Under the pieces are notes generated by a model that was given only the letters and a program-made list of their open reading frames with translations, was not told where the DNA came from and did no database searches. DNA of 64,000 nucleotides from Burkholderia sp. WP9. GTDB lineage: Bacteria; Pseudomonadota; Gammaproteobacteria; Burkholderiales; Burkholderiaceae. The stretch spans positions 372,001 through 436,000 of the forward strand of contig NZ_FNTG01000001.1 in assembly GCF_900104795.1 (NCBI RefSeq), given 5' to 3'. This document shows positions 37,039 through 44,868 of this stretch, piece by piece (the stretch's first letter is position 1; the number at the start of each line of letters is the position of its first letter). A program made the translations under genes and the position numbers.

Positions 37039-37072
37039 AACCCGCCCGGGGTCGACCCGGGCGGGTTTTTTT
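37039..37072 (+). terminator. Rho-independent terminator after bamC
   Basis: A 12-bp perfect stem (37039-37050 with 37056-37067), 5-nt loop and a run of seven T, 27 bp after the bamC stop. Confidence 0.95.
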
Positions 37073-37350: not shown

Positions 37351-37547
37351 ACCGCTCTGAAGCGCGTCCCGCTGTCCACGGCGGGGATCATGCGGCGGCA
37401 CCTCGTGCGGCCGCATGTAACGTGACGTTACGCCGGTGACGTAACTTTCCAAACCTTCTTTCCGTCGCGCCCTGTCAACTCTCCGCCGCGAATAAATTCG
37501 ATAAGAATCAACCGTTTGCGGTGACTGGCTGCAGTCGCTTGGCAAGC

Positions 37548-37564
37548 TGGCACACAAGCTGCTT
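37548..37564 (+). promoter_or_regulatory. Sigma-54 (RpoN) promoter candidate
   Basis: TGGCACACAAGCTGCTT carries GG and GC exactly 10 nt apart (37549-37550 and 37561-37562), as required for -24/-12 recognition by RpoN. The TGGCAC half is an exact consensus match and TGCTT is a good -12 element. Transcription would start near 37574 and enter the stem-loop region ending at 37789. No protein-coding gene follows in that direction. Confidence 0.55.
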
Positions 37565-37573
37565 TTAACAGGG

Positions 37574-37789
37574 CGTGAAACCGGATTGGCTTGCCCCACA
37601 TGGGTTTGCGGCGAGTCGTCCAGCGAACGAATCAATCAAGGAATTCTGACCATTCCAGCATCGGCCGACGAACCGATGCCTAGCCCGATGATGGCCTGCG
37701 CGATGACGCGCGGCCTCGGTGGCCCCGTCGCCTATCCTCGTAGGGCGACGGTTTCGCCCGCACTCCCGTGGAGTGCGGGCTATTTTTTT
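37574..37789 (+). ncRNA. Candidate structured small RNA, about 215 nt
   Basis: Downstream of the sigma-54 site are five successive stem-loops on the plus strand: 37640-37656, 37658-37679 (7 bp), 37693-37715 (9 bp with one bulge), 37725-37751 (8-10 bp) and a terminator stem 37756-37780 of 11 bp followed by a T-rich tract to 37789. There is no convincing reading frame, and the neighbouring exporter gene is convergent, so the terminator must serve a transcript of this region. I do not recognise the RNA family. The 5' end and expression are inferred. Confidence 0.5.
37756..37789 (+). terminator. Terminator of the candidate small RNA
   Basis: An 11-bp perfect stem with a 3-nt loop is followed by TATTTTTTT. 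Orientation is plus strand. On the minus strand it lacks a T-run, so it is not the terminator of the EamA gene, which ends at 37886. Confidence 0.9.
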
Positions 37790-37885
37790 GCGCTTGGGAG
37801 TCGTCGCGGCGGCGGGATGGCGGGGCTGCGGGAAGAATGCGCGGGTCGGCGACGCCGGAGAGCGTCGCGCGCAACGAAGCGGATG

Positions 37886-38812
37886 TCAGGTGTCGGCGCG
37901 GCGCGTTCCGATCCACGGCAGACGCTTGATAACGCCCGTGGCCAGCGCGGTGCCGACCAGGATCACGCCGCAACCTTCGAGCATGCCGGGCGACACGCTT
38001 TCGCCGAGAAACAGCGCGCCCCACAGAATGCCGAAGATCGGAATCACGAAGGTCACCGTAATCGCGCGCGCCGGTCCGACCACCGCGATCAGATGGAAGA
38101 ACAACATATACGCCACGCCCGTACACGCGACGCCGAGCGCGATCACCGCACCCCACGCGTGGAGCGAGACCGGCGCCGCCGGCCAGTAGATCACGGCGAG
38201 CGGCAGCAGCACGATCGTGGCGCCGGTCATGGTGCCGGTCGCGACGGTGAGCGCGTCGACGCCGGTCAGGTGGCGCTTCGTGTAGTTGGCGGCGACGCCA
38301 TACAGCAGCGTGGCGCCGAGTGCCGCGGCGGCCGCGAGCGCGGTGCTGAGCGGGGTCGCGGCCGTACCGTTCGGCGCGGCGATCTGATCCCATACCAGCA
38401 TCAATACGCCGAGAAAGCCGATCACCAACCCGAGCGTGCGCAGCGCGCTCAGCCGGTCACGCAGCCAGAGAAAGCCGACCAGCGCGCCCCAGAGCGGCGT
38501 GCTCGCATTGATCACGGAGGTGACTCCCGCCGACAGCGTCAACTCGGCGTAGGCGAACAGGCAGAAGGGCGCCGCCGAATTCAGGATGCCGACCACCAGC
38601 AGCGGGAAGGCGCGCGTGCGCAGGATGGTCGCGGATTGGCGTAGCGGGCGTCGCGCGATCAGCACGACGGCGAGAAACGCCGCGCCGATGCCGACGCGCA
38701 GCGCCATCAACGGTGCGACGCCGAAGTCGGTGACGCCGACGCGGATAAACAGGAACGACGCGCCCCACAGGGCGGCGAGGATCAGTAGTTGCAGCAGGTT
38801 TTTGGCATTCAT
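37886..38812 (-). CDS. EamA/DMT-family transporter
   Basis: A 308-residue inner-membrane protein with about ten hydrophobic segments arranged as two EamA repeats. ILAALWGASFLFIRVGV opens the first repeat. It starts at the ATG at 38812 (MNAKNLLQLL), with GAGG upstream; 14 more codons are open. Such proteins export amino acids or drugs; the substrate is unknown. It is convergent to the small RNA region. Confidence 0.85.
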   Translation of the reverse strand: MNAKNLLQLLILAALWGASFLFIRVGVTDFGVAPLMALRVGIGAAFLAVVLIARRPLRQSATILRTRAFPLLVVGILNSAAPFCLFAYAELTLSAGVTSVINASTPLWGALVGFLWLRDRLSALRTLGLVIGFLGVLMLVWDQIAAPNGTAATPLSTALAAAAALGATLLYGVAANYTKRHLTGVDALTVATGTMTGATIVLLPLAVIYWPAAPVSLHAWGAVIALGVACTGVAYMLFFHLIAVVGPARAITVTFVIPIFGILWGALFLGESVSPGMLEGCGVILVGTALATGVIKRLPWIGTRRADT

Positions 38813-39237
38813 CGGGATGGCGCCTCGCGCGGTTGAGTCGAGACGCCCGCGCATCGTAGCAGCGCAATCGTGCGAAACGTTTCAGGCTGGAATGAAACGG
38901 CAAGATCCGGGAGATAAAAGGCGTCTGATAGTCGTGATCGTAAGTGTAGCGGCGGTGTGCGCAAAACGAGCAATTCTCACGCTGATGTGAGAAAAATTGC
39001 GATCACGACGGTGTGATGGAGGGGTGGGGCTGAGGCAGGATATGGTGTCTGCTTGAGCGTCGTGAATTATTTTGCGGTCGATGGCTCGCTGGCGGGACGG
39101 TGTGAATGAGGCGCAAGCGCGGATCGGTTGTGCCGGGCCAGCTGCTTGACCCGACCAGACGCGACCCGGCGCGACTTGGCGAAACCCGTCTCAGTGCGTA
39201 GTCTTCCGAGCGCGTCGTGCCCACCGTAAGCAACGCC
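38813..39237. other. Intergenic region between EamA gene and repeat array
   Basis: No gene is recognised in these 425 bp. It should hold the EamA promoter on the minus strand and the end of the lldP transcript. Confidence 0.4.
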
Positions 39238-44538: not shown

Positions 44539-44616
44539 CTAAGCAGGAGACGAGACGGAAGTTGTCGGAAATCGCGAGAGATGAGGCCATGGAGCTGGAG
44601 TGCGAATTCCGCACGC

Positions 44617-44710
44617 TTCCCTGCGCTGGCATTATCCAGATCAGGTTCAAAGGGTATTTCTCACCCGCGCAGCACGGACCTCCAACCTCCGTGCGACGCA
44701 GGACCCCCGC
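44617..44710 (-). promoter_or_regulatory. TPP riboswitch (THI box)
   Basis: The minus strand shows the conserved blocks GGTGAGAAATACCC, TGAACCTGATCTGGATAATG and CCAGCGCAGGGAA. The variable P3 arm is a stem GCACGGA/TCCGTGC with a 9-nt loop. It should switch thiC off when thiamine pyrophosphate is abundant. Confidence 0.95.
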
Positions 44711-44868
44711 GTTAGCAGCGCACACGATACACCGGCCACACGCTGCTTGGCAACCCGTCTTCGAACATCGGATGGCGGATATCACAGCGGCAAGCCATGC
44801 GGCATTGCCGTATTCAGGGGGCTGTCATGAAGCGGCGCAACACGGGTTGCTACGCCATTGCGCTGTGC

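Follow-up and report, generated by a model that had tools for sequence, protein, structure and literature searches.

Introduction

GlmY (GlrR) and Qrr (LuxO) are sigma-54-dependent small RNAs with activator sites; their enhancer sites and sequence differ from those of the RNA described here. In Pseudomonas, the carbon-starvation regulator CbrB binds TGTTAC/GTAACA at crcZ and crcY, together with an IHF site and a GG-N10-GC promoter, and CbrAB has been described as exclusive to Pseudomonads (PMC6296734). Among the double-hairpin RNAs, S17 of Bordetella is transcribed from a sigma-A promoter and its loop is reported to pair with ribosome binding sites (PMC11722255), and such pairing has also been proposed for the double-hairpin RNAs (PMC5688073).

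In Burkholderia and its relatives, sigma-54 regulons have so far been described via protein genes, and no small RNA there is tied to sigma-54 in the accessible parts of the literature. NcS25 was examined for a sigma-54 site and none was present (PMC10117139). In the same literature, no entry on sigma-54 small RNAs in Burkholderia was recognised as the RNA considered here, a candidate gene in a 64-kb stretch of Burkholderia DNA. The window below means this whole stretch.

Results

Predicted promoter, upstream sites and RNA

The following features, all on the + strand, were located in the window.

37417..37431, +: palindrome GTAACGTGACGTTAC, two putative enhancer subsites, identical in the 30 best-matching loci of the genus
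37436..37445, +: third putative subsite GTGACGTAAC, with GTAAC at 37441
37506..37518, +: IHF-like site AATCAACCGTTTG, a weak consensus match between enhancer and promoter
37548..37563, +: predicted sigma-54 promoter TGGCACACAAGCTGCT, -24 GG and -12 GC ten bases apart
37574..37788, +: predicted small RNA of about 215 nt, placed by promoter spacing, terminator and fold
37690..37717, +: hairpin A, variable in sequence with pairing kept, compensatory changes in outer pairs
37725..37751, +: hairpin B, with loop AUCCUCGUA at 37734-37742, the likely target-pairing site
37756..37789, +: hairpin C, predicted intrinsic terminator with T-run, from the fold and compensatory changes

An earlier note on this DNA had proposed a near-consensus RpoN promoter (GG-N10-GC) followed by about 215 nt with five successive stem-loops, the last an 11-bp terminator with a T-run. 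The promoter held up well: TGGCACACAAGCTGCT is the sole match to TGGCAYRNNNNNTGCW in the window, where 0.14 matches were expected and 14 of 100 shuffled sequences contained at least one. It sets the predicted +1 at about 37574, so that the GG-N10-GC element stands at the 5' end of the RNA. The palindrome, the third subsite and the IHF-like site were absent from the earlier note. GTAAC-N5-GTTAC occurs once in the window against 0.01 expected, and the exact palindrome GTAACGTGACGTTAC has a single occurrence in its own genome. Near-copies with up to two mismatches show no excess there (11 places versus 23 for a reversed control).

The stretch behind the promoter also folds well beyond shuffled sequences: 37574-37795 reaches -102.3 kcal/mol, whereas shuffles reach -83.2 (sd 4.5), which gives z -4.2, and none of 200 shuffles folded as stably. 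Stem-loops are present in the predicted fold as claimed, although their number is six local hairpins rather than five. The terminator was confirmed as an 11-bp stem (37756-37780) followed by TA and seven T. In the predicted structure, the hairpin with the Shine-Dalgarno-complementary loop lies directly before the terminator hairpin, which is the architecture of double-hairpin RNAs with a CU loop. The 36 nt upstream of the conserved box also tend to fold (mean z -2.55 over 128 distinct sequences).

Distribution and compensatory changes

A 401-bp region containing the locus matches 82 of 144 same-genus genomes, its own included, and its 3' part matches 118 of 299 family genomes in 9 of 25 genera; the remainder reflects absence or divergence in both cases. 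Scanning for the exact 23-base block of hairpin B gave at least 120 named loci in Paraburkholderia, Burkholderia, Caballeronia and Trinickia, and coverage outside Burkholderiaceae came from this exact-block scan, among the matches listed. Upstream on the same strand lies bamC in 106 of 120 listed loci from these four genera; for the remaining 14 the available upstream DNA is short (47 to 642 bases at 13 loci, 1013 at one). A hairpin with a T-run stands directly behind bamC in the window (37040-37072), and bamC transcription therefore probably ends before the small RNA gene. The next gene in the window is convergent, as the earlier note had it, and encodes an EamA transporter (37886-38854). A convergent EamA match downstream was found at loci titled Paraburkholderia and a few titled Burkholderia sp. 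In B. cenocepacia, the ortholog measures about 208-211 nt, counted from its predicted +1 into the T-run, and the ORF that follows has the same orientation.

We examined base pairing in an alignment, A1, of 49 sequences: the window and 48 of 87 dereplicated loci. A1 omits the four most diverged loci (L083, L084, L085 and L088), and the exact-block scan supplied 35 of its 49 rows. The predicted change of paired bases in relatives was found in hairpins A and C. One pair of hairpin A is G-C in 26 rows, A-U in 17 and G-U in five, and the adjoining pair is C-G in 22 and U-A in 18. These are columns 20/52 and 21/51 of A1; the inner columns of the hairpin are misaligned (9.2% paired), and 46 of 49 rows lack pairing at one of the outer pairs (columns 18/54). 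One terminator pair is C-G in 24 rows and U-A in 21. Altogether, double-sided changes occupied 86 cells, compared with 32.4 in shuffled alignments (0 of 500 shuffles reached this value) and at most 28 with slid partners.

Promoter and subsites across loci

Among the 30 best of the 82 genus matches, TGGCA and TGC of the promoter are invariant; GG, GC, the palindrome and the third subsite stay constant against drift in most of the intervening DNA. The promoter test covered 111 of the 120 listed loci, nine being too short upstream. TGGCA-N7-YGC was present in 87 of the 111, in agreement with the expectation that the -24/-12 site would be conserved in other Burkholderiaceae. The GTAAC/GTTAC subsites lie about 100-130 bp upstream of the promoter. 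Of the 87 loci with the promoter, 85 carry at least two subsites within 430 nt upstream and 83 at least three, with none in two loci. Among the 24 without it, 21 have no subsites, two have one, and L206 combines four with a TGGCG-type promoter. A stricter score left 82 listed loci with a promoter, and subsites at -160 to -55 numbered three in 63 of them, four in 13, two in three loci, one in one locus and none in two. Comparison thus shows that the promoter and the subsites occur together, and the enhancer-like sites are kept along with the promoter. The IHF-like site is weak on its own, as 1.03 matches to its consensus are expected in the window; the exact consensus is present in 38 of the 111 loci.

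Loci without the promoter are mostly titled Caballeronia, and several, including L110, L126 and L134, keep the RNA core. In place of promoter and subsites, these loci share a different conserved sequence, which contains TTGCGCAGACAATTCTTTCTATC and GTGCGCAAAAGCTTATAGAAA; both promoter types are found together at C. sordidicola-like loci. As the core is retained under this other upstream sequence, control by sigma-54 does not extend to all loci, and the Caballeronia loci represent a small RNA whose promoter region has been exchanged. The promoterless loci are largely one clade, so the joint loss of promoter and subsites may reflect one or a few events.

Conserved loop of hairpin B

The loop AUCCUCGUA is complementary to Shine-Dalgarno sequences. 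In A1, six of the nine pairs of hairpin B never vary, with 35 of the 49 rows having been selected by an exact match to this hairpin; likewise, its constancy among the at least 120 listed loci is by construction, because they were picked via that match. A fair test uses the BLAST-found loci alone. The 27-base block was identical in 30 of the 30 best of the 82 genus loci and in 29 of 30 family-list loci, the two lists sharing genomes. In 20 further BLAST-found stretches, mostly from other genera, the block was identical in eight, changed but recognisable in nine and not found in three, and UCCUCGU was kept in all 17 with a recognisable block. At L089, a stem pair of hairpin B is preserved by a two-sided change from G-C to A-U. 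Selection appears to act on sequence in the loop and on shape in the flanking hairpins.

Searching for ACGAGGAT ahead of ATG in the window's own genome and four others gave no convincing target. The string was found at 29 places in the own genome, 24 in G142, 28 in G118, 20 in G364 and 33 in G404; 55 of the 105 places in the four other genomes were examined (30 loci, and 25 places on 20 stretches of G404). Protein matches to the window genome comprised two in G142, an aminotransferase-like gene and a proline-rich ORF of 89 aa, and one in G404, a long ORF resembling the reverse frame of a coding gene. The leader string of the aminotransferase-like gene is also present in G118. In the window genome, the 89-aa proline-rich ORF (L265) adjoins two sigma-54 activators and has ACGAGGATAC in its leader; the similar ORF of G142 (L299) likewise has ACGAGGATAC in its leader.

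Candidate activator

Proteins of the NtrC family bind a site other than GTAAC/GTTAC. NtrC is encoded in the own genome (L215, 670.6 bits to TIGR01818), and as the activator it is not supported, the conserved subsites being of the Pseudomonas CbrB type (PMC6296734). The earlier note had suggested a link to nitrogen or carbon limitation. Its nitrogen part is not supported by the GTAAC/GTTAC subsites, which are those of CbrB promoters; the signal may be a carbon or community one.

PF00158 gave 30 matches in the own genome, of which 22 score high, and we compared 21 of these 22 with CbrB, leaving out L230. Only L232 has a CbrB-type recognition helix (GISRKxLWE), reading GISRKVLWEK compared with GISRKCLWER in CbrB, and RKxLWE was found in none of the other 20. 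SRKVLWEK is kept in 119 of 120 listed L232 homologs, and SRKCLWER in 119 of 120 listed CbrB-set proteins. The whole-protein score of L232 is near the bottom and its C-terminal score ties with that of L233, so the case for L232 is one of helix residues.

L232 is a neighbour of hfq2, along with a DUF2968 gene and Tad pilus genes. The order hfq2, DUF2968 gene, activator is kept in J2315 (81.9% identity). We take B. cenocepacia hfq2 to be BCAL1538, which would make the neighbour BCAL1536. The position of L232 in J2315 fits BCAL1536, that is GtrR, the step to the locus tag passing through this hfq2 number. GtrR has been reported downstream of the RpfFR system (PMC9684580, PMC12838280). On the strength of a recognition helix that agrees with the one in CbrB, a binder of TGTTAC/GTAACA, we favour the sigma-54 activator beside hfq2, of GtrR/BCAL1536 type, as a tentative best candidate from these sequence comparisons. 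In C. pedi, the activator persists (P0092) and the promoter and subsites are lost (L152), which counts against the link. A search of the own genome for TGACGTWAC 60-90 bases before a sigma-54 site gave no match; the window's own spacing of about 100 is outside this range, so this negative carries little weight.

The gene hfq2 is the second hfq gene, with a long C-terminal tail, and paired GTAAC/GTTAC subsites lie upstream of it (L243:6194-6208, with hfq2 at L243:6338-6898). The only one-mismatch copy of the palindrome in the own genome is found there. Such a copy alone means little, as about one is expected by chance (an estimate) and near-copies are fewer than in the reversed control. GTAAC-N5-GTTAC stands upstream of hfq2 in the window genome and in seven of nine other same-genus genomes searched; of the remaining two, one has GTAAC-N5-GTAAC and the other nothing. 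Five of six Burkholderia hfq2 loci in the alignment have GTAAC-N5-GTAAC, and no paired subsites were seen upstream of hfq2 in L343-L345, from other genera, or in L346. Judged by sequence, the putative site is conserved in Paraburkholderia and Burkholderia. We saw no good sigma-54 promoter behind these sites, where 4 of the 14 readable loci have a bare GG-N10-GC match, and they may therefore be used by another factor; a TATAGTGG element stands behind the paired subsites. Given the 216-nt hfq2 leader reported in B. cenocepacia (PMC3474761), the subsite pair would lie at or just inside the transcript.

Discussion

Our reading, which we consider fairly probable, is that the locus is a gene for a sigma-54-dependent, trans-acting, base-pairing small RNA. 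Comparison shows the promoter, subsites, hairpins, terminator and loop to be conserved; transcription, Hfq binding and repression by pairing we infer. The earlier picture of a dedicated structured small RNA with a conserved sigma-54 promoter, terminator and hairpins stands, now with conserved subsites; nitrogen control is not supported. Sigma-54 RNA polymerase would wait at 37548-37563 until an enhancer-binding protein on the GTAAC/GTTAC subsites at 37417-37445 triggers transcription from about 37574, assisted by DNA bending, perhaps by IHF at 37506. The RNA would end at the terminator (37756-37789). Its 5' half may be a variable structured leader and its 3' half the working part, in which the exposed loop AUCCUCGUA would pair with Shine-Dalgarno regions of target mRNAs and block translation while Hfq holds the U-rich tail.

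An alternative that we regard as a real possibility, if short of an even chance, is that the RNA belongs to the double-hairpin 'toxic sRNA'/bdhR1/S17 superfamily, has acquired a sigma-54 promoter, and yields its 3' module by processing of a long precursor. The two readings overlap, differing in ancestry and processing. At its cut-offs, Rfam returned nothing in the window except a TPP riboswitch elsewhere (RF00059, 62.2 bits, 44600-44718, - strand) and assigned no family to the small RNA, which the earlier note had also failed to recognise. Below the cut-offs, matches to RF02837 (anti-hemB) and RF02278 (Betaproteobacteria toxic sRNA) sit exactly on the 3' module, and all ten further loci match one or both. 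RF02837 scored 31.9 bits in the window, 33.7 at the B. cenocepacia ortholog and at best 33.8 at the further loci, and RF02278 scored 24.2, 25 and at best 33.7. Moreover, processing yields short forms of this kind from S17 and ncS27 (PMC11722255, PMC5688073). These scores are nevertheless far under the thresholds of 49.5 and 50, the RF02278 score of the ortholog ranks among chance-like matches in the B. cenocepacia genome, and the shared pattern could be convergent.

It is improbable that the RNA sequesters a protein or chaperone, as a CrcZ-like or CsrA sponge, instead of pairing with mRNA. The promoter layout does resemble crcZ/crcY (PMC6296734), but the CA motif AANAANAA, the one for Hfq/Crc, is absent from 37574-37789, as the earlier note had claimed in setting the RNA apart from CrcZ/CrcY, and from the B. 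cenocepacia ortholog. The window RNA has just three GGA, and what is kept is one loop with its flank, not repeats. Still less credible is a leader or 3' end of the bamC mRNA: bamC is the upstream gene at most listed loci and in B. cenocepacia the ORF after the RNA shares its orientation, but the hairpin with a T-run behind bamC, the RNA's own promoter and terminator, and the convergent next gene in the window argue for a separate transcript. A translated small ORF in the conserved block (ATG/GTG-GCC-CCG-TCG-CCT-ATC-CTC) can practically be dismissed, for although 136 of 141 distinct sequences have GTG or ATG at the start of the block, the linker of 3, 4, 5 or 6 nt (in 1, 90, 46 and 4 of the 141) varies by single bases and keeps no frame, the distance to the first stop ranges widely, and neighbouring changes preserve base pairs instead.

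The base-pairing small RNA of our preferred reading might belong to a wider circuit, although we think this unlikely as a whole: a GtrR-type activator would bind the CbrB-like subsites across Burkholderia, switch on the small RNA and also control hfq2. GtrR of B. cenocepacia is the partner of RpfR, the receptor of the BDSF and c-di-GMP signal, so a cell-density signal would, if the circuit is true, set both a small RNA and an RNA chaperone. The regulator, signal and targets are directly testable, as the RNA is kept in several genera and has a clear promoter, one obvious loop and a named candidate activator.

Among described RNAs of B. cenocepacia, ncS11/ncRNA13/RIT55 is similar in its length of about 208 nt, its terminator and its conservation in Burkholderia (PMC5688073, PMC10987360). 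The hemP gene is co-transcribed with ncS63 and so lies about 3 kb from ncS11 (PMC5688073); in B. cenocepacia NCTC13227, hemP is on contig C7 and the ortholog on C1, and we rejected identity with ncS11. NCTC13227 was taken to represent J2315 coordinates because the spacing of the RF02278 genes ncS03 and ncS05 is 258,127 bases, compared with 258,126 in Table 1 of PMC5688073. Some 52 kb separate the ortholog from hfq2; if h2cR is placed at 1.7046 Mb (PMC3474761), the ortholog would lie near 1.65 or 1.76 Mb. The main-text tables (PMC5688073 Table 1, PMC4603805 Tables 3 and 4, PMC10987360 Table 2) have no entry near either position, and earlier detection under another name is possible.

With the RNAs of RF02837 and RF02278 (ncS03/05/27/62 and bdhR1; S17 of Bordetella), the present RNA shares a two-hairpin 3' module, a CU-containing loop and a terminator with a GCCCG stem. 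It differs from them in its loop AUCCUCGUA, its long 5' part and its sigma-54 promoter, and scores 24-34 bits. If its loop pairs with ribosome binding sites, it would work as the double-hairpin RNAs do. With CrcZ/CrcY it shares GG-N10-GC, an IHF-like site between promoter and enhancer, and CbrB-type GTAAC/GTTAC subsites upstream, of which there are typically three (PMC6296734), and it differs from them in having a Shine-Dalgarno-complementary loop and no CA motifs. Should the proposed circuit be true, Burkholderia would have its own equivalent of the CbrB-CrcZ branch, one built on an RNA that pairs and not on a sponge.
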